From: Deltaproteobacteria bacterium
GTDB taxonomy: Bacteria; Desulfobacterota_D; UBA1144; Nemesobacterales; UBA2774
DNA: 64,000 nucleotides
Direction of reading: 5' to 3'
NCBI GenBank assembly: GCA_040223695.1
Contig: JAVKFU010000018.1
Location: 124,001-188,000 of the forward strand
This document shows positions 1,126 to 11,679 of this stretch, one piece after another (within the stretch, counting starts at the first letter, position 1; the number at the start of each line of letters is the position of its first letter). The notes under the pieces were generated by a model. The model saw nothing but the letters and a program-made list of their open reading frames with translations, did no database searches and was not told the DNA's origin. A program made the translations under genes and the position numbers.

Positions 1126-1416
1126 TTAGCCGGTTTCCTTGAAGTGTTTCTCTCTCAGGGGGTCATGATCGATTTCGGAAATCAGGTACGCGATGTGGTA
1201 TTGGTCGCCCGGGTAAAAGTACAATCTGATACCCTGGGGCGTGACAAAGTATAATCCGTCCTTTTTTGTATCATCCGGCAGTTCCACTTCATACACCGGA
1301 TATCCTACTGTGCCGGATCCCAAATTAACCGGTTTTCTGTCCTTCCTTAATTCCCTTACGTTATCTGCAATTTCCCATACCTTGGGAAAAATCTGTCCTT
1401 TTACTGTAAGCTTCAT
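1126..1416 (-). CDS. Hypothetical protein, 96 residues
   Basis: This is a small soluble protein that I do not recognise. It starts with ATG. It is charged at both ends, with a central stretch rich in glycine, tyrosine and proline (GSGTVGYPVYEVELPDD) followed by YFYPGDQYHIAYLI, which looks like a beta-rich fold. There is no signal peptide or membrane segment. It is the second of two small genes following the hybrid histidine kinase in the same direction, so it may belong to that transcription unit. Normal codon use and coherent composition support it as a real gene, but no function can be assigned. Confidence 0.6.
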   Translation of the reverse strand: MKLTVKGQIFPKVWEIADNVRELRKDRKPVNLGSGTVGYPVYEVELPDDTKKDGLYFVTPQGIRLYFYPGDQYHIAYLISEIDHDPLREKHFKETG

Positions 1417-1474: not shown

Positions 1475-1846
1475 TCAATCTTCCGACACCTGAACCCTGG
1501 TAATCATTCCGATACAGGTGATTATCATATCCAATTTGCTGTTTCGTTCATAGAGGTAGCGCTGAGAGAGTTTTTCTCCGCAGTCCCCGCATTCCGCCCC
1601 GCCTTCGAGGTTAACCGATTTTTCGCAGTTCTCGCAGTAAGTCTCTTTGTCCTCGTACCACGCAAGATGCGAGTATATGAGCTCGTTTAATCCCCTTTTC
1701 CCCAGCGAGTTCGCCCATTCGGACAGATCGCGTTTTATTGTGTTTCTGAATTTAGGGGGAACCTCGTTCAGATCACCTGAATATATCTCGTCTTCATTCA
1801 CATAAATTTTGCAGGTAAAGGGGGTTGGTTCTTCTGTTCCCGCCAT
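1475..1846 (-). CDS. Small zinc-ribbon-like hypothetical protein
   Basis: This 123-residue protein carries two CxxC knuckles about 17 residues apart (CENC and CGDC, around residues 70-93), the pattern of a zinc ribbon. The N-terminal half contains an acidic YVNEDEIYSGDL stretch and is probably a separate small fold. It starts 9 bp after the stop of the hybrid kinase, so co-transcription with the kinases is likely. A zinc-stabilised accessory or nucleic-acid-binding role is possible but unproven. I do not recognise a named family. Confidence 0.65.
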   Translation of the reverse strand: MAGTEEPTPFTCKIYVNEDEIYSGDLNEVPPKFRNTIKRDLSEWANSLGKRGLNELIYSHLAWYEDKETYCENCEKSVNLEGGAECGDCGEKLSQRYLYERNSKLDMIITCIGMITRVQVSED

Positions 1847-1855
1847 AACAATGGG

Positions 1856-3775
1856 TTATCTGCTGACTGCCTCTGCGCCAAGCACCCTGGAAACCGCGTT
1901 TTGTATCTGATCGACTGAGAAGGGCTTTTTAATGATGTTATAAGCCCCTTCGTCCGACAGTTCGTCCGGGAGCTGTTCTTCCGGCCTTGCGCTTATAATC
2001 ACGATTGCCGAGTTCGGGTCTATCACTTTTATTTCCCTGAACAGCTCGAGGCCGTCTTTTTTAGGCAGGGAGAAGTCCAGAAATATTATATCGAAATGGT
2101 TTTTTTTGATAATTTCTACAGCCTGTTTCCCGTCTCCGGCGGACATAACGTTGTGACCCGTGCTCGACAGGCATTCGCTCACTATATCCCGGATGAATTC
2201 CTCATCGTCTACTATTAGCACGTTTCCTTTTCTTCTGAGTTCGATTACTTTTCCCGTGTCGTGAATCCTGGTAACAGGCTCAGCATCCTGTGTTCTCGGA
2301 GCGGACTGGACGTTCGGAAGGAGTATGGTAAAGGTTGTTCCCTTGTTCACTTCGCTTGAAACTTCGATGCAGCCGCCGTGTCTTTCAATAATGGCGTATA
2401 TCACGGAGAGTCCCAGTCCCGTTCCCGCTTTTGTTCCTTCGCTCTGCTTGGTAGTGTAAAAGGGCTCGAATATTCTCGACAGGTTCTCTTGAGGTATTCC
2501 GACGCCTGTATCGGAAAAGTCTATCCTGACATAGTTATCCTCAATCTTCGTGTTGATAGCTATGGCGCCTCCGCCGGGCATCGCGTGTTTCGAATTAATG
2601 GCCATATTGAGGAAGACCTGCTGGAGTTCTCCCAGGTTCATTCTGATTGCGGGGACTTTCTCGTAATTGCGGAGAATCCTTATCCCGTCGGTTTCGAATG
2701 TATGCTCAACTAGGCCGAGCGCATCCTCTATCACGCTCTCAATCTGGCCAACCTGGAACTTCTCTCCCTTCTGTCTGGAAAAAGAAAGAAGTTTGTTCAC
2801 AATCTCGACCGCCCTGTCACAGGCCTTTTCGATAATTTTAAGATCCTTCTTCACACTCTCCATATCTTCCCTCATTAAAGCAAGGCTCGTATAGCCTATT
2901 ATGCCGGAGAGTATATTGTTAAACTCATGGGCAACCCCTGCGGCCAGCTGTCCGACGCCCGACATCTTTGCCGAGTGTATCAGCTGCGCTTCAAGCTTCT
3001 TCTTCTCCGTAATGTTCTCAGTCGCCGCAATAACGCCGAATATCTCCTTTGATTCGAAGTCGATCAACGGGGAAAGCGTCACCTCCAGGAACTTTCCGTC
3101 ATGCCTCACTTCATGTTTCGTCGAATATGAGGGGTCGCTCAGTATCTTGGGAACAACGTTATTAAAGTTGATCCCGTCGAACAGGGAGGTTAACTTTTCT
3201 CCTGTACAGTCTTTGCTGAAAATTTCTGCGGTTTTGGGATTCGCGCTGATTATTACAAGCTCCTTGTCCGTGGTGATTATACTTTCATTCGTACTGTTCA
3301 GTGTGTTTTCAAGCTGTCTGTTTCTTTCCTTAACCTTTAGCTCGAGGTTTGAATTAAGCTCTTTCAGGTCTTTGAGGAGCCGCGTGTTTTCCTGATGCAG
3401 TTCATATCTGTCGACTGCGTGCTCGATGACGCTTTTTAGTTTTCCGTAATCGAGGGGTTTAATCATATAATCGAAAGCCCCGTTGTGGACCGCTTCGACA
3501 GCGGTTTCAAGAGAGGCGAAACCCGTCATCAGAATGACAGGTATATTCGGGTCTTTGTTCTTTATCTCCTCCAGAAGATCAATCCCGCTCTTAATCGGCA
3601 TTTTGATATCGGATAGTACGACATTGAAAGAAGCCGATTTTAAATTTTCAATCGCTTTCTCGCAGTTATTGGCGATGATTACCTCATAACCCTCTTTAGT
3701 TAATATGTCTGAGATGATTTTTAGAATTAGCTGCTCGTCATCGACTACCAGAACCCTTTTTGCTCTACCCTTCAT
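1856..3775 (-). CDS. Hybrid signalling protein: REC-PAS-histidine kinase-REC
   Basis: This is a cytoplasmic two-component protein with no membrane segments. The order is a receiver (residues 5-120, phospho-Asp D56 in LSDIKMP), a coiled coil, a PAS domain (about 155-260), HisKA with H283 in AHEFNN, HATPase_c (N box NMAINSKHAM, then DTGVGIP and GTGLGLS), and a C-terminal receiver (about 512-630, D567 in FLDFSLP). I chose the ATG at 3775 because a strong GAGGAGAGG ribosome binding site lies just upstream; the frame stays open 15 codons further but without one. The start overlaps the upstream membrane kinase by 11 bp, implying translational coupling. The N-terminal receiver may accept phosphate from that kinase. 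No DNA-binding output is present, so the output must act through another protein. Confidence 0.93.
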   Translation of the reverse strand: MKGRAKRVLVVDDEQLILKIISDILTKEGYEVIIANNCEKAIENLKSASFNVVLSDIKMPIKSGIDLLEEIKNKDPNIPVILMTGFASLETAVEAVHNGAFDYMIKPLDYGKLKSVIEHAVDRYELHQENTRLLKDLKELNSNLELKVKERNRQLENTLNSTNESIITTDKELVIISANPKTAEIFSKDCTGEKLTSLFDGINFNNVVPKILSDPSYSTKHEVRHDGKFLEVTLSPLIDFESKEIFGVIAATENITEKKKLEAQLIHSAKMSGVGQLAAGVAHEFNNILSGIIGYTSLALMREDMESVKKDLKIIEKACDRAVEIVNKLLSFSRQKGEKFQVGQIESVIEDALGLVEHTFETDGIRILRNYEKVPAIRMNLGELQQVFLNMAINSKHAMPGGGAIAINTKIEDNYVRIDFSDTGVGIPQENLSRIFEPFYTTKQSEGTKAGTGLGLSVIYAIIERHGGCIEVSSEVNKGTTFTILLPNVQSAPRTQDAEPVTRIHDTGKVIELRRKGNVLIVDDEEFIRDIVSECLSSTGHNVMSAGDGKQAVEIIKKNHFDIIFLDFSLPKKDGLELFREIKVIDPNSAIVIISARPEEQLPDELSDEGAYNIIKKPFSVDQIQNAVSRVLGAEAVSR

Positions 3776-6293
3776 TTTCCTCTCCTCTATTAATATTATA
3801 GTTATTTGTCGGAAGTTCAATTGTAAAGGTAGTTCCGTTACCCTCTTCGCTGCTCACTATTATTCTGCCCTTGTGTTTTTCGATTATCTTGTAAGCTATC
3901 GAAAGCCCCAGACCGGTACCCATGTCCTTCTTGGTAAAAAAGGGGTCGAAAATTTTGGAGATATCCTCCTTTACGATCCCCGTTCCGGTATCTTCAAAGT
4001 TGATGTACACGTGATTCGAATTGTCGTTTCCGTAATCCTCGTAATGAGTGGTTGTTTCTATTTTTAGATTGCCGCCTGTGGGCATCGCCTGAATAGCGTT
4101 CAGGATTATGTTGATAAATACCTGCCACAGCTGGTTCGGGTCAGCCATGATTTGGGGGATATTTTCATCAAAGTCCGTAGTGAGATTGACATTGTTGTCT
4201 GAAAGCTGCTTCCGGACCAGAATGACCACATTTTGAAGGACGCTGTTAATATTTACGTTCTCGAAATAAGGCTCCTCGGATTTCGAGAATTTAAGGAGAC
4301 TGTCTATAAGGCGGTTGGTTCTGTCTATTTCATGTTTGATGTAATCCAGATACTCTTCGACCATCTCGGAGTTTTTATCGTTTGTCATATAGGTTGAAAG
4401 ATAGTACCTCGCCCCTTCTATTATATTTAAAGGATTTCGTATCTCATGAGCGACGCCCGCCGCGAGCTGTCCGATCGCCGACATCTTCTCCGCATGCACG
4501 AGCTGTTCCTGGGTGTCCTTCAGCTCTTTATTCGTATTCTCCAGTTTTTTCGCGTAGTCCTCGACGAGTCTAAACGCAATAGCGTTCTCGATCGCGATTG
4601 CGCTCTGGTTGGCCAGGAGTCGGAGAAGCTTTACGTCGCGGGACGTGTAGGAGAGTCTCGATTTTTTATCCCCTAGAGCTATAAAACCTATAAGCTGTTT
4701 CTTGAACAGTAGAGGTATGAACAGGGACGCCTTAAACCTTTCGAACTCGTTCATCAGTTCTTGAGAATTATGTATGTATCTCTCATCTGCTATCAGGTCT
4801 TCTTTAAATATTTCCTTTCGGTAGTAATTAAGCTGCTGCACCAGGATGTTGTTTTCGTTAATTGTGCTTTCCGGATAGTATTGAACGTCTCCGTCTTTTA
4901 AATATTTCTCGTAAACACCCAGGTCCTGATTATAGATAGAAACCGAAACCGGGGAGGAAAACATCGTGCTTTCAATTATCCCGATAATCTTATCGACGAT
5001 TTTGTCGAGACTGAGAAGCGAAGTCATCGCATAGCTTACTTCTTCCACAGTGCCCCGGTAATCATATTTCTTTCTGAAAAAGGTAAGGTCCACCAGGTTC
5101 TGTATATGATTTTTCAGCGGGTTAAGGGCGATAACCAGAAAACCGCTCAGGATTACGAAAAAGGCAGGATTTTTCCACCCGCCGTACTTGGCAAACGCCA
5201 CATTGAAGCCGAATACTGTCACGGCGAAAATACCCCCGACAGCGCCGGTAAGGAGCCCGTATGTAAGGGCTTTTTCAAGTATCGCGTCGATGTCGAAGAG
5301 CTTATGCTTCAGAATGGCATATGCGATGGAGAGAGGGAATACTATCACCGGAAGCGCCATTAGATTAAAGGGCATGTTTATTTTGAATACGGTAATACAG
5401 GCAACCGCCAGAGCCGGCACCAGGAGGCCGAAAATACAACCGAGCAATATTATCTGAGCCCTTTGTTTCTCCAGCGATGAATGCGGTTTCAGATAAGTCC
5501 ATACTGAAGGGAGCGGGAATATGAGAGTGCTTAAAACAATGTATATCCAGATTGAGGCATTTAGGTACTTCCAAATATAATACGAATCAAAGAAAATGAA
5601 TTGCAATATGAAAAGTAAGGAGGATAATAACAAAAATAAGAGTGAGATTAAATTGTGCGTTGTCGCCTTTATATTGGTATCCGAAGGAAAAATGAACATC
5701 AGATAAATTCCGAAAAACGGGCTGAACGTCAATCCAAAAAATGTTAATTGATCGAGGATATATACTGCCTGCCCGTTAAACGAACCTACGAACCAGATAC
5801 ATATCGATGCGCAAAACAGGAAAAACGCCTTACTCGCTTTAAGGTAAGGCTTGTAATAAAGAACCAGTGTCCCTATAGTTAAAAAAACTATACCTATTAC
5901 ATATATGACACCGAACATTGTAAGTAAATCTTTTGCCGAGAATTTCTGTGTCGGTATCTTAAAGCTGAAAAGTTCCCCGCTTCTCTGTATCTTGTATTCG
6001 ACGGCAGTGCCGACAGGCAGAGGGTTTATTATTTCAAAAACATCTCCGGGAGTCTTTACCCTGGTTCCGTTGATCTCGTAAACCTTATCCTTGAATCTTT
6101 TCAAAATGCCGTCCTCGGATATGTCCGGGGAGATGTCAGTGATTACTAAATTTTTATAGAAGAAGAAACCCGGGTATGACCGGTTTACCCAATTCAAGCC
6201 GGAGAAAATATTCCCGATACAATATATCAGGAGGGCAAAAACGAGTATTGTAAATGCGGTCTTTTGGATGTCTTCAGGATTTTTAAATGACAT
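3765..6293 (-). CDS. Membrane histidine kinase with PDZ-like sensor, multiple TM helices and GAF
   Basis: This 842-residue sensor kinase has one N-terminal TM helix (12-31), an extracytoplasmic PDZ-like region (about 45-115, with VYEINGTRVKTPGDVF), about eight further TM helices (122-390), a GAF domain (about 420-575), a short coiled coil, HisKA with H616 in AHEIRN, and HATPase_c with N, G1 and G2 boxes. The PDZ-plus-polytopic layout and the KHKLFDIDAILEKALTYG segment recall Bacillus ComP, a quorum-peptide receptor; that likeness is inference. It begins 33 bp after the PilZ-synthase gene and overlaps the hybrid kinase, so all three probably share the riboswitch-led transcript. No strong ribosome binding site is visible before its ATG. 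Confidence 0.92.
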   Translation of the reverse strand: MSFKNPEDIQKTAFTILVFALLIYCIGNIFSGLNWVNRSYPGFFFYKNLVITDISPDISEDGILKRFKDKVYEINGTRVKTPGDVFEIINPLPVGTAVEYKIQRSGELFSFKIPTQKFSAKDLLTMFGVIYVIGIVFLTIGTLVLYYKPYLKASKAFFLFCASICIWFVGSFNGQAVYILDQLTFFGLTFSPFFGIYLMFIFPSDTNIKATTHNLISLLFLLLSSLLFILQFIFFDSYYIWKYLNASIWIYIVLSTLIFPLPSVWTYLKPHSSLEKQRAQIILLGCIFGLLVPALAVACITVFKINMPFNLMALPVIVFPLSIAYAILKHKLFDIDAILEKALTYGLLTGAVGGIFAVTVFGFNVAFAKYGGWKNPAFFVILSGFLVIALNPLKNHIQNLVDLTFFRKKYDYRGTVEEVSYAMTSLLSLDKIVDKIIGIIESTMFSSPVSVSIYNQDLGVYEKYLKDGDVQYYPESTINENNILVQQLNYYRKEIFKEDLIADERYIHNSQELMNEFERFKASLFIPLLFKKQLIGFIALGDKKSRLSYTSRDVKLLRLLANQSAIAIENAIAFRLVEDYAKKLENTNKELKDTQEQLVHAEKMSAIGQLAAGVAHEIRNPLNIIEGARYYLSTYMTNDKNSEMVEEYLDYIKHEIDRTNRLIDSLLKFSKSEEPYFENVNINSVLQNVVILVRKQLSDNNVNLTTDFDENIPQIMADPNQLWQVFINIILNAIQAMPTGGNLKIETTTHYEDYGNDNSNHVYINFEDTGTGIVKEDISKIFDPFFTKKDMGTGLGLSIAYKIIEKHKGRIIVSSEEGNGTTFTIELPTNNYNINRGEENEG

Positions 6294-6326: not shown

Positions 6327-9080
6327 CTATTCAGGACCTTTTACATACATGTCCCAGTACAAGTCGACCTTTCCTCCTAGACTTTCTAGAATGCGCCGTG
6401 ACTTCGTGTTTTCCTCAAGCGCATAAGATAACGCTACCTTGTCGTAGCCCTTTTCAATCATGGCCTCACAAGCGCGGCCGAGAAGAACCGCTCCCAGCTT
6501 CCTGCCCTTGTACTTGTCCAGTAAACCGACTATCAATATCGCCCCTTCCCTGATTCTACGGAGCTGGAGCGGGAGCTTTAGCAGATTCTGGGGTTTGAGT
6601 TCTCCGTTCAGACCTCTGAAAACCGGCGAGTACTGAGGGAAGCCTCCGACAAAACCGATTGCCTCACCTTCAGCCTCCGCAACCAGCCAGAATTCGGGGT
6701 CGATTAGACTCTTGAATTCATCGGCGAACTCTATGAATTCATCGTAATCGAATGGGACATTTCCCCAAAGCTGGGCCAGTGATTCATTGAATATCTTCAC
6801 TACTCCCCGAACCTCCTGCTTCCAGTCCGATTTGTTAATTTTCCGAATCTTAACCTCGGCGAGGCTGAGCCCGCGGGAGTGATTTAATATACTCTCCACA
6901 TTTTCCGGTGATTTGAGGTCGATCGTATAATGAAGCAGCTTTTTGAACGGCCTGAAGCCCGAATCTCTAAAATATTCATGATAGTAAGGCTGTGTATATA
7001 CCTGCAGGAATGACGGGATTCTACCGAAATTACTCGAAAGGAAACCCCCGCCGTAAAGACCGAAGATACCGTTAACAGGACCCTGTATCTCGGCGCATCC
7101 TTCCCCGGCAAGGAAGTCGTTTGCTTCTTTAAGCAGAAGACCGATTGCTTCTTCTTTTTCGGGCAAGGCCTCGAAAAAGCCGAGGAACCCGACATTTGTA
7201 TTGTGATAGCGGTTGAAATAGTTATCGATGAAAGCGCTCACCGTGCCGACTATTTCTCCTCTTTCCTCAACTACGAACCTTTTACCGTAGACCTTTCTGA
7301 AATAAAAATAATCATTTGATATGAGTTTTACGTGATCCTTAATCAGAAAGTAAGGGACCCATGCGGGGAAATCCTTATAGACCTTCCAGGAGAACTTGAC
7401 GGACTTCTCTATTTCTTCCCTGGAAGATATCTCTCTCACATTGTATTTCCGCCCCTCTGGAATATTCATTGAAACCGGTTTGTCTATTATCCCGAATTCC
7501 CTTCCCAGCTTTTCCGTGACCTCGAGAGTCCTGTCCAGGTCCTCGCGCGTGTGGGTGGCCATGACGCTGAACCTGAATCTTTCCTGCCCCTTGGGTACGG
7601 CGGGGTGGGGGATTGCGTTTACATAGATACCCTCTTCGTGCATCCTCCTGCTCATCTTCTTTTGAGTAAGCTCGTCTCCGATCAGAACAGGGATAATCGC
7701 CGATTCTGTCCGTCCGGTATAGAATCCGAGGAGTTTTAGGTTCTCTTTCATATATTTGATATTTTCCCATAGCTTCCTGTGGAGCGACTCGTCCGTTTCC
7801 ATGATCTCCATGGCCGCGAGCACCGAGGCCGCCACGGACGGGGGGAAGTTCGATGAGAAGAAGAATGACCTCGTGTAATATCTCAGATAGTTGACTACTT
7901 CTTTTGTGGAAGCCACGAAGCCCCCGACTCCGCCAAGCGACTTGCTCAACGTTCCCACTACAATGTCTATGTCGCCCGGCCTCATCTTGAAATGGCTTGG
8001 AGTGCCCTTTCCCTTCTCTCCTATAACCCCGGTGGCGTGAGCCTCGTCCACCATAACCTTAGCGCCGTAGTTGTGCGCGATCTCGGTGATTTGACGAAGC
8101 GGCGCGATATCTCCATCCATGCTGTAAACCCCGTCTACGACAACTACCTTTCCACTGTAATTATCTTTAGCTCTCCTTAGGACGTTCTCCATGCTCTCCA
8201 TATCGGAGTGTTTAAAGGTCCTGAAGGTTCCCGAGGAGATCAGACAGCCGTCAATTATGCTCGCATGGGCAAGCCTGTCTATGATTGCTACATCTTCTTT
8301 CTTTACAAGGGCCTGTATGGTTCCGAGGTTGGTAACATAGCCGCTCGGGAAGATTATCGCGTCCTCACAACCTTTCAGCTCGGCAAGCTTTAATTCCAAT
8401 TGGCGGTGAATGTCGAATGTGCCGGCTAGAAGAGGTACTGACCCAGCTCCCACCCCGTATTTTTGAGTCATTTCTTTTGCTACCTTGATGACACTCGGGT
8501 GAGAGGTAATGCCCAAATAGTTATTGCTGCCCATCATGATCATCTCTTTCTTTCCGCCGGTAAAGTCGTCATCTATCACGACTTTGTGAGCGGAAGCGGA
8601 GGCAAGGGGCCTTCTATACCTTATATAGCCTTTTTCCTCCATATCCAGTTTGTACTGCCAGAATACTTCCGCCTTCTTAAAAAGGTCCTCATCCGGTATG
8701 TCAGCAAAGTCGGATAGATAGTAATCGTCGGAATTAAGTTTTGTCTGTGTGCCTTCCATGTAATTTACTAACTTGTCTCTGCCCGAATCGAAAATATTTA
8801 TAAATTCGACGCCGATTCCCCCGGGACCGTTACCGTTAGCCTCTATCCTCTTTACCTCGCAGTATGCCTTTACGGGCATAGCACTGCCCTTGAGCTCACA
8901 CTCCACGAGGAGTTTCGTGCCCCGTTTGTATTCGTCCTCTGTTACTATAAACAGACCTTCGGGGGAGAAGTCCCTGACCTGCCCTATAACCTTGCCGGTA
9001 TTCCTGGATAAGACGCTGAAGTCCGCCGGAATTCTCTCATGGGTTCTGCGGTCTTTCTTTTCCCTGATTACGATCCCCAA
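6327..9080 (-). CDS. PilZ / alpha-oxoamine synthase (serine palmitoyltransferase-like) / bCerS-like N-acyltransferase fusion
   Basis: This protein has three parts. Residues 8-110 form a PilZ domain with both c-di-GMP motifs: RRTHER (11-16) and DFSPEG (37-42). Residues about 125-530 form a fold-type I PLP enzyme of the alpha-oxoamine synthase family, with GSNNYLG (184-190), H272, DEAHATG (345-351) and Schiff-base K380 in GTLSKSLGG. These enzymes condense an amino acid with an acyl thioester; the context favours serine palmitoyltransferase, but the substrate is inferred. Residues about 545-917 match YghO/bCerS-type GNAT acyltransferases (GFLGFFE at 631-637, QGPVN at 666-670, and a C-terminal KGRKLGAVLL acyl-CoA loop). 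The start is a TTG six bases after AGAGAGGG. The whole would make and N-acylate a sphingoid base under c-di-GMP control. The PilZ, PLP and GNAT calls are firm; the ceramide assignment is inference. Confidence 0.93.
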   Translation of the reverse strand: MGIVIREKKDRRTHERIPADFSVLSRNTGKVIGQVRDFSPEGLFIVTEDEYKRGTKLLVECELKGSAMPVKAYCEVKRIEANGNGPGGIGVEFINIFDSGRDKLVNYMEGTQTKLNSDDYYLSDFADIPDEDLFKKAEVFWQYKLDMEEKGYIRYRRPLASASAHKVVIDDDFTGGKKEMIMMGSNNYLGITSHPSVIKVAKEMTQKYGVGAGSVPLLAGTFDIHRQLELKLAELKGCEDAIIFPSGYVTNLGTIQALVKKEDVAIIDRLAHASIIDGCLISSGTFRTFKHSDMESMENVLRRAKDNYSGKVVVVDGVYSMDGDIAPLRQITEIAHNYGAKVMVDEAHATGVIGEKGKGTPSHFKMRPGDIDIVVGTLSKSLGGVGGFVASTKEVVNYLRYYTRSFFFSSNFPPSVAASVLAAMEIMETDESLHRKLWENIKYMKENLKLLGFYTGRTESAIIPVLIGDELTQKKMSRRMHEEGIYVNAIPHPAVPKGQERFRFSVMATHTREDLDRTLEVTEKLGREFGIIDKPVSMNIPEGRKYNVREISSREEIEKSVKFSWKVYKDFPAWVPYFLIKDHVKLISNDYFYFRKVYGKRFVVEERGEIVGTVSAFIDNYFNRYHNTNVGFLGFFEALPEKEEAIGLLLKEANDFLAGEGCAEIQGPVNGIFGLYGGGFLSSNFGRIPSFLQVYTQPYYHEYFRDSGFRPFKKLLHYTIDLKSPENVESILNHSRGLSLAEVKIRKINKSDWKQEVRGVVKIFNESLAQLWGNVPFDYDEFIEFADEFKSLIDPEFWLVAEAEGEAIGFVGGFPQYSPVFRGLNGELKPQNLLKLPLQLRRIREGAILIVGLLDKYKGRKLGAVLLGRACEAMIEKGYDKVALSYALEENTKSRRILESLGGKVDLYWDMYVKGPE

Positions 9081-9085
9081 TATTA

Positions 9086-9094
9086 TCCCTCTCT
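9086..9094 (-). promoter_or_regulatory. Ribosome binding site of the PilZ-synthase gene, with possible anti-SD partner
   Basis: AGAGAGGG lies six bases before the TTG start of the PilZ-synthase gene and fixes that start. Its GAGGGA core (9086-9091) is perfectly complementary over six bases to UCCCUC (9288-9293) at the 5' foot of the riboswitch. That pairing could hide the ribosome binding site when the aptamer is unfolded. No U-tailed terminator hairpin is visible between aptamer and start, so translational control is the more likely mode. The pairing is found by eye and unproven. Confidence 0.5.
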
Positions 9095-9194
9095 AAAATA
9101 ATAGATTTTAGTAATGTTCTTTAACATACTTAAGAATATTGTTTACAGCTATCGTACAATTATCTTCTATTATTAGAAATATTGCAAGTAATTC

Positions 9195-9293
9195 TCTTTT
9201 CGGCAACTCAACCGCCATAGACTATAACTCGCATGTCCGTAGGCTTGAAGTTTTGCGTCCCATCCTTTCGGATAGTTTGCCTTTTCGGAGGGA
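9195..9293 (-). promoter_or_regulatory. c-di-GMP-I (GEMM) riboswitch aptamer
   Basis: On the minus strand the leader contains the GEMM-I signature elements in order. These are GGCAAAC (9281-9275), a P2 hairpin with a GAAA tetraloop (CUAUCC/GGAUGG), GGGACGCAAA, and a P3 stem whose GCCUACG...UAUGGC sides resemble the 11-nt tetraloop receptor. The closing AGUUGCC strand (9208-9202) pairs with GGC-AACU to form P1. By hand alignment to the Vibrio Vc2 aptamer, the positions of G20 (9281) and C92 (9203) are G and C, which favours c-di-GMP over cyclic AMP-GMP. It lies between a good promoter and the PilZ-synthase gene, about 115 nt from the start codon. Confidence 0.92.
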
Positions 9294-9310
9294 ACCAACC
9301 CTATATTAAA

Positions 9311-9339
9311 ATTCTAGTCCCATTTGTAATAATTTTCAA
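9311..9339 (-). promoter_or_regulatory. Sigma70-type promoter driving the riboswitch transcript
   Basis: TTGAAA (9339-9334) and TAGAAT (9316-9311) are separated by exactly 17 bases on the minus strand. Transcription would start near 9304, about ten bases before the riboswitch, giving a leader of about 220 nt. The surrounding DNA (9301-9400) is AT-rich. This separates the PilZ-synthase operon from aroC upstream. The stretch 9340-9572 between promoter and aroC holds nothing else that I can name. Confidence 0.75.
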
Positions 9340-10698: not shown

Positions 10699-11679
10699 TT
10701 ACAGATAGCCGTTTTCCCTGAACCACTTAACAGTCTTTTCTATAGTCTCCTCAAGGGGCCGGGGTGAAAACCCAAGCTCCTTTACCGCCTTGGAATTGTC
10801 GAAATACCAGTAATGCCTGGTCCCTTTTATGGAGTCCACATCCATTGCGACGTAGTTCGGAGCGGGAATCCTTACAAGCTCCGCCAGATACGCTCCGGCA
10901 AGCGCAATGAAATACGGTATCTTTAATTTGGGCCGCGGTATCCCCGTAACCCTTTCCAGCACCTCGAAGAGCTCTTTAATAGTGATATTGCGGTTGCTCA
11001 GGATATAATGCTCCCCGACCTTTCCTTTTTCCTCGGCGAGAAGATGGCCGATCGCGACGTCTTCCGCATCCACAAGGTTGATCCCGCCGTCGGTATAGCC
11101 GGGCAGTCTCCTCTTGCAGTACCAGAGAATCATACCGCTCGTGGAGACGTAAACGTCCCCGGCTCCTATAACAATGGACGGGTTTACGATAACGAGCGGC
11201 AGGCCCTTTTCAACGAATTTGAGCGCTTCCCGCTCCGCGTAGTATTTCGATAATATATATTGAATATCCGTGCTTCCGGGATCAAACGGGGTTTCCTCGT
11301 CCGCCAGCTCCTTTCCGGGTTTTAGGCCGATTGCGGCAACGCTGCTGGTGTAAACGGCTTTTTTCACCCCGGCCTCCATGGCGGCCGTAAAAACGTTATT
11401 CGTCCCCTTAACATTGATGTCTTCCATCTTTTGGTAATCCGCCTGTTTGAAGGACACCATCCCGGCCGTATGAAAAAGCCTGTCGCATCCCTGGAGGGCG
11501 CTCCGTATGGAGTCTATATCGGTTACGTCCCCGTAAACCCTTTCCGCGTCAATGTCGTCGATGTTTATTGTCTTGCTGGTTTTTCTCAGAAGAATCCTGA
11601 CCTCATCCCCTCTTTCCACAAGTTTTCTGGCAATGTGGGAGCCTAAAAAGCCGGTCGCCCCGGTAACCAAAGTCGCCAT
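10699..11679 (-). CDS. NAD(P)-dependent epimerase/reductase (extended SDR, HpnA / CerR-like)
   Basis: This extended short-chain dehydrogenase has the Rossmann TGATGFLGS motif at residues 7-15 and the catalytic YxxxK as YILSK around residues 140-144. It is closest in pattern to the dihydroflavonol-reductase group that includes the hopanoid-associated epimerase HpnA. Bacterial ceramide reductase (CerR of Caulobacter) is also an NAD-dependent epimerase-like SDR. Its position near the synthase-acyltransferase fusion therefore makes a lipid-modifying role attractive, though aroC lies between. The ATG has a perfect AGGAGG eight bases upstream. The substrate is unknown. Confidence 0.85.
   Translation of the reverse strand: MATLVTGATGFLGSHIARKLVERGDEVRILLRKTSKTINIDDIDAERVYGDVTDIDSIRSALQGCDRLFHTAGMVSFKQADYQKMEDINVKGTNNVFTAAMEAGVKKAVYTSSVAAIGLKPGKELADEETPFDPGSTDIQYILSKYYAEREALKFVEKGLPLVIVNPSIVIGAGDVYVSTSGMILWYCKRRLPGYTDGGINLVDAEDVAIGHLLAEEKGKVGEHYILSNRNITIKELFEVLERVTGIPRPKLKIPYFIALAGAYLAELVRIPAPNYVAMDVDSIKGTRHYWYFDNSKAVKELGFSPRPLEETIEKTVKWFRENGYL

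Follow-up and report, generated by a model that had tools for sequence, protein, structure and literature searches.

In the 64 000-nt stretch of a deltaproteobacterial genome analysed here (hereafter, the window), a complete c-di-GMP-I (GEMM-I) riboswitch aptamer lies upstream of a gene for a 917-amino acid protein in which a PilZ domain, an alpha-oxoamine synthase domain and a YghO-type N-acyltransferase domain are fused. With a riboswitch on the mRNA and a PilZ domain on the protein, a single signal appears to act on the enzyme twice. The explanation of the entire arrangement that we consider reasonably probable is that c-di-GMP controls the PilZ-synthase-acyltransferase at both the RNA and the protein levels, and that the product is a ceramide-like or N-acyl-aminoketone lipid.

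The aptamer occupies positions 9199–9291 of the minus strand, matches the Rfam model RF01051 over its full length (1–87) with 74.1 bits (E 1.1e-12; gathering score, 35 bits) and is the sole Rfam match within the 64-kb window. The significant match in this covariance-model search bears out the original prediction, that of a GEMM-I core on the minus strand, and the elements are as it described them, namely, the GGCAAAC motif (9281–9275), a GAAA-capped P2 helix, GGGACGCAAA and the closing GUUGCCGAA. In the alignment of 13 aptamers (that of the window, seven from relatives, taken at this locus or next to it, and five from other sites in the same genome), 93.7% of the structure cells are paired and both sides have changed in 15 of the 22 pairs, a level of covariation that was matched in none of the 500 shuffles and was not nearly approached in slid registers. 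A chance match to RF01051 is ruled out by the score together with the covariation. The tetraloop-receptor-like P3 that had been predicted is there as regards the GAAA loop and the receptor strand (9238–9243, minus strand) but the receptor, CCUACG/UAUGG, shows one departure, with the strand reading CCUACG in the window and CCUAAG or CCUAAA in the other seven aptamers of the locus. The CCUACG receptor may make for a weaker fold of the window aptamer, which scores 74 bits compared with 77–82 bits for its five orthologs in the same family (L008–L012). By itself, the window riboswitch is an ordinary member of the known class.

With positions numbered as in the Vibrio cholerae Vc2 aptamer, the equivalents of the ligand-contact bases G20, A47 and C92 are 9281 (G), 9254 and 9203 (C), respectively, and those of G20 and C92 are invariant across the 13 aligned aptamers. 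G at position 20 marks the c-di-GMP form of GEMM-I, and this base is present in all six aptamers of the genome. These findings agree with the prediction that the G20 and C92 equivalents favor c-di-GMP over cyclic AMP-GMP (cGAMP), and the two bases and the family membership suggest that the aptamer binds c-di-GMP. Sensing of 3',3'-cGAMP instead of c-di-GMP in the cell is very improbable, given the G at position 20 and the PilZ domain on the controlled enzyme. The presence of cGAMP in this organism is nevertheless conceivable because one of its own GGDEF proteins, encoded at G000:C18:347810-348277 (L148, G000:C18:347300-349500), carries a Hypr-type serine (GHLIGS, with GGDEF) and is a candidate cGAMP synthase. 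Serine at this position of GGDEF proteins marks the Hypr cGAMP synthases (PMC6456294), and the related GEMM-Ib RNAs of Geobacter are cGAMP sensors (PMC8835794).

The aptamer is preceded, as predicted, by a promoter of its own with the 17-bp spacing, P1 (TTGAAA-17-TAGAAT, 9339–9311, minus strand). By pattern alone, this site does not rise above chance, with 4 such sites found in the stretch vs 3.2 expected; its hexamers are, however, conserved in relatives, the −35 element being identical and the −10 element nearly so in all six family members, compared with 12% identity in the preceding 26 nt. The hexamers are kept in the five close relatives (L008–L012), and a distant relative (L014) has TTGCAA-17-TAGAAT at the same position. 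A second promoter-like site, P2 (TTGCAA-17-GATAAT, 9159–9187, minus strand), which was absent from the original prediction, starts 12 nt past the aptamer, between it and the gene, and is conserved as strongly as P1, with an identical −35 element in six of the six family members, a −10 element of the form GAT[A/T]AT and only 10% identity in the preceding 10 nt. If this site is a real promoter, it could yield a riboswitch-free transcript, and the switch would then control only part of the message; if it is not a promoter, the site is part of the expression platform. In the extreme case, the aptamer would be a relic and expression would proceed from promoter-like site P2 alone, which would fit the equal conservation of the two sites as well as the changed receptor of the window aptamer and its score below those of the five family orthologs. 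We consider such decay highly unlikely: the compensatory changes in helices P2 and P3, together with the invariant ligand-site bases, show that the aptamer is still under selection, and P1 is conserved as well.

From the aptamer to the TTG start, the leader spans about 118 nt, with the ribosome-binding site AGAGAGGG (9087–9094, minus strand) located 6 nt before the start codon. No terminator-like site was found on the minus strand between the aptamer and the start codon, and a platform that acts by transcription termination was rejected on this ground, so that ribosome access or RNA stability is the likelier mode of control. Folding predictions give no consistent picture of ribosome-site masking across the six orthologs: pairing of the leader with the ribosome site is predicted in only two of the six (L009 and L010), and sequestration of this site by the 5' leader is not predicted in the window.

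The link between the riboswitch and the fusion is conserved. The search for the locus covered 40 relatives, among which complete fusions were identified in five members of the same family (L008–L012) and in two genomes from a different family within the order (L013 and L014), the others being cut by contig ends. The family has six complete fusions (window and L008–L012), each with the riboswitch about 120 nt upstream of the gene and in the same orientation, and an RF01051 match of 53.9 bits was detected upstream of the distant fusion L014. In this latter GEMM-I element (L014:1083-1237), the P3 loop is enlarged by about 70 nt. At two other loci, a GEMM-I element is found 3' of the PilZ-synthase gene, either directly before the kinase (L018:1319-1405) or before a methyltransferase gene that itself precedes the kinase (L019:3376-3462), and a weak possible remnant of RF01051 (24.7 bits, E 0.02) follows the PilZ-synthase in L017. 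In the L019 element, U replaces G at the position-20 equivalent. No riboswitch was found at the locus in four genomes (G022, G029, G021 and G025), and none beside alpha-oxoamine synthase genes in the 80 loci examined from other phyla. When 44 genomes of the order are compared, RF01051 is present in 18 of the 18 with the locus (three seen as fragments) vs 3 of the 26 without it (Fisher p 1.3e-9, with no correction for shared ancestry, of which the counts are not independent); this association is one at the level of lineages rather than the outcome of many independent gains.

The fusion gene (6327–9080, minus strand) begins with TTG at 9080, which aligns with ATG in relatives. The original prediction named an alpha-oxoamine synthase/N-acyltransferase as the riboswitch target, and both domains are present, but it missed the PilZ domain at the N-terminus (residues 10–109; 8754–9053, minus strand). 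The match of this domain to PF07238 reaches 45.5 bits, compared with the Pfam cut-off of 22.5, and both its motifs are intact (RxxxR, R12–R16, and DxSxxG, D37–G42); among the PilZ-synthases of the order for which the N-terminus is available, none lacks RxxxR or [D/N]xSxxG. These are the motifs named for c-di-GMP binding by PilZ (PMC5013675), and because the fusion begins with such a domain, the target of the riboswitch is itself a predicted c-di-GMP receptor. The alpha-oxoamine synthase domain (residues 147–532; 7485–8642, minus strand) was delineated by PF00155 (200 bits), TIGR01825 and alignments, and conserves the Schiff-base (PLP) Lys380 and the catalytic His272, Asp345 and His348; the 424 bits against TIGR01825 are under the cut-off of that family, and all other curated cut-offs are missed as well. 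The N-acyltransferase domain (residues 546–917; 6330–7445, minus strand) was recognized by homology to Escherichia coli YghO, of the bCerS/Aca family: its 372 residues are 24% identical to YghO of E. coli BL21 over 369 aa (E 1.8e-36; 1.1e-45 with a profile), and Pfam alone yields only a generic GNAT match in this region. The AlphaFold model of the fusion, built with six sequences, has a mean pLDDT of 57 and a pTM of 0.35 and was not used as evidence.

The label of lipid synthase, which the original prediction applied to the fusion, is likely on the strength of family membership, but any particular product is conjectural, the synthase domain being placed outside the Spt+bCerS clade. The synthase is 35% identical to E. 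coli Spt over 350 aa (2e-74), and this similarity, along with that to YghO, would be accounted for if the fusion were an ordinary sphingolipid enzyme, that is, serine palmitoyltransferase joined to bacterial ceramide synthase, that acquired c-di-GMP control. Fusions of Spt and bCerS that lack PilZ do exist, in a Syntrophaceae MAG (L068:5851-8226) and an FCPU426 MAG (L069:5989-8385), and a gene for a distant CerR-like reductase (28% identity over 218 aa) is located two genes upstream of the fusion (10702–11679); the reductase, however, is nearest to HpnA. Against the serine palmitoyltransferase families NF047600, NF047599 and NF047603, the fusion synthase scores 386, 349 and 291 bits, respectively, compared with cut-offs of 640, 500 and 670. 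In trees of 110 and 44 synthases, the PilZ-synthases of the order cluster with synthases of Bacillota and Omnitrophota that lack a known function, and forcing them into the Spt+bCerS clade costs 49 log-likelihood units (AU test p 0.00015). Identification of the domain as a serine palmitoyltransferase was rejected, as neither the curated scores nor the tree supports it. The fused acyltransferases likewise form a single clade, separate from the stand-alone bCerS, and keep only 36 of the 66 columns that are conserved in the latter; furthermore, several members of the order have a PilZ-synthase without an acyltransferase. An ordinary sphingolipid enzyme is, on these grounds, unlikely. Because neither fusion domain is placed within the Spt+bCerS clade, 'sphingolipid synthase' would be only a guess, and a ceramide-like N-acyl-aminoketone lipid is the best guess for the product.

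The genes that follow the fusion bear on what this product might be for. A membrane sensor histidine kinase with a PDZ-like loop, a multi-TM region and GAF, HisKA and HATPase_c domains is encoded 33 nt after the fusion gene (3765–6293, minus strand), its gene is overlapped by that for a hybrid REC-PAS-HisKA-HATPase-REC protein (1856–3820, minus strand), and two small conserved genes, for a zinc-ribbon-like protein of 123 aa (1475–1846, minus strand) and a protein of 96 aa (1126–1416, minus strand), neither with a Pfam match, come next. The predicted lipid-synthase operon is therefore right for the synthase gene after the aptamer but not for the remainder, which consists of kinases and small proteins and contains no lipid genes. 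The synthase, the membrane kinase, the hybrid kinase and the two small genes occur together in four families of the order (f1, f4, f6 and f7), and the block persists even where the acyltransferase is missing. MAGs from three phyla or more show this pairing of a PilZ-synthase with a membrane sensor. In a Clostridia MAG, the PilZ-synthase (L077:5977-9135; PilZ identified by Pfam) is directly followed by a membrane sensor protein whose gene runs past the end of the contig piece, and in an Elusimicrobia MAG, the synthase (L079:5440-9236), with an N-terminus that is PilZ-like although below the reach of Pfam, is directly followed by a HisKA_7TM membrane kinase; in their membrane regions, these sensors can be aligned with the window kinase (hhalign probability 95, E 2.5e-8).

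The conserved kinase block and the recurrence of the sensors in the Clostridia and Elusimicrobia MAGs leave room for a signaling role similar to that of CqsA/CqsS. The enzyme would then make a diffusible or membrane lipid signal for the adjacent membrane kinase, c-di-GMP would gate its production through the RNA and the protein, and the hybrid kinase would relay the response, a scenario that we regard as rather unlikely yet the strongest of the alternatives. CqsA/CqsS and LqsA/LqsS each combine a PLP synthase with a sensor kinase (PMC3376566), and the position of the window synthase outside the Spt+bCerS clade is compatible with such a role. The synthase is, however, far from CqsA, with 203 of 428 bits against NF005526 (CqsA) and 117 bits against CqsA structures vs about 300 for those of Spt and Kbl, and an N-acyltransferase of the ceramide synthase type fits a membrane lipid better; besides, membrane kinases are common, and the link between kinase and ligand is, in this case, putative. 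A tentative and somewhat improbable version is a c-di-GMP-gated lipid-signaling module in which the riboswitch and the PilZ domain jointly set how much N-acyl-aminoketone lipid is made, with the adjacent membrane kinase and the hybrid kinase as its sensors. If this version is true, an intracellular second messenger is linked to a secreted or membrane signal. The PilZ-synthase-kinase neighborhood offers a concrete and testable starting point in the search for a lipid signal that may be new.

The source genome (3.03 Mb in 23 contigs) contains six RF01051, six GGDEF and four PilZ matches. Another of its RF01051 riboswitches precedes the gene for a PilB (L054:4727-6750) that bears an MshEN domain (80.7 bits); of the two 24-residue motifs of this domain, inspected by eye, the second is intact and the first is degenerate. 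In other proteins, MshEN binds c-di-GMP. The remaining riboswitches precede a PilM-led pilus operon and the genes for a PKD protein, a CBM96/beta-helix protein and a glucose/sorbosone-dehydrogenase-type protein, some of these targets being secreted proteins. Judging by these genes, a GEMM-I regulon of the known kind is present in the genome, and at least two of the riboswitch targets, PilB and the fusion, are themselves predicted c-di-GMP receptors, so that the riboswitch before the MshEN-bearing PilB is a second RNA-plus-protein pairing in the same genome.

Under the explanation favored here, transcription from P1 would yield a leader in which the c-di-GMP-I aptamer is the first element with a structure, and binding of c-di-GMP would alter the amount of the 917-aa protein through that leader, by way of ribosome access or RNA stability. 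The alpha-oxoamine synthase domain would carry out the condensation of an amino acid and an acyl thioester, and the bCerS-type acyltransferase domain would N-acylate the resulting product, giving what the family suggests to be a ceramide-like or N-acyl-aminoketone membrane lipid. In this manner, c-di-GMP would set the amount of the enzyme via the RNA and its activity via PilZ, and the control of the fusion would be coordinated with that of the genes for the type IV pilus and for surface proteins that follow the other c-di-GMP riboswitches of the genome. Against this proposal count the potential bypass at promoter-like site P2, the inconsistent folding, the synthase outside the Spt+bCerS clade, the 36 of 66 conserved columns and the loci without a riboswitch.

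To date, c-di-GMP has been linked mainly to pili, motility, polysaccharides and electron transfer. If the proposal is true, one second messenger hits the same enzyme twice, via the mRNA and via an attached receptor domain, and the synthesis of a ceramide-like lipid joins the processes under c-di-GMP control. The literature searched, with many subscription papers outside the search, contained no report in which this enzyme is connected with PilZ or with c-di-GMP riboswitches, which is consistent with the prediction that the fusion is not a standard regulon member; both the riboswitch target and the double, RNA-plus-protein control by c-di-GMP look new within that literature.

The complete aptamer, the GAAA loop of P2, the ligand-site bases, the position in the leader and the own promoter are those of c-di-GMP-I riboswitches (RF01051), as is, one departure aside, the receptor; the window riboswitch differs from other members in its PilZ-synthase-acyltransferase target, the CCUACG receptor and the promoter-like site after the aptamer. 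PilZ-bearing enzymes, such as BcsA and Alg44, are known c-di-GMP effectors, and the fusion resembles them in carrying RxxxR and [D/N]xSxxG on an enzyme for an envelope component, although its product is deduced from homology and the partner of its PilZ domain is, in place of a polysaccharide synthase, a PLP-dependent alpha-oxoamine synthase. Both the synthase and the N-acyltransferase are homologous, over the full domains, to the products of the dihydroceramide genes spt and yghO/aca, which in E. coli BL21 and Caulobacter accompany epi, with yghO clustered with spt and epi in BL21 (PMC9386255); in the window, in contrast, the two domains belong to one protein together with PilZ, and neither is placed in the clades that the known genes form. 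As in the alpha-hydroxyketone quorum-sensing systems CqsA/CqsS and LqsA/LqsS (PMC3376566), a PLP-dependent acyl-condensing synthase adjoins a membrane histidine kinase but, compared with CqsA and LqsA, the window synthase is only distantly related, comes with the additional PilZ and acyltransferase domains and is placed under riboswitch control.
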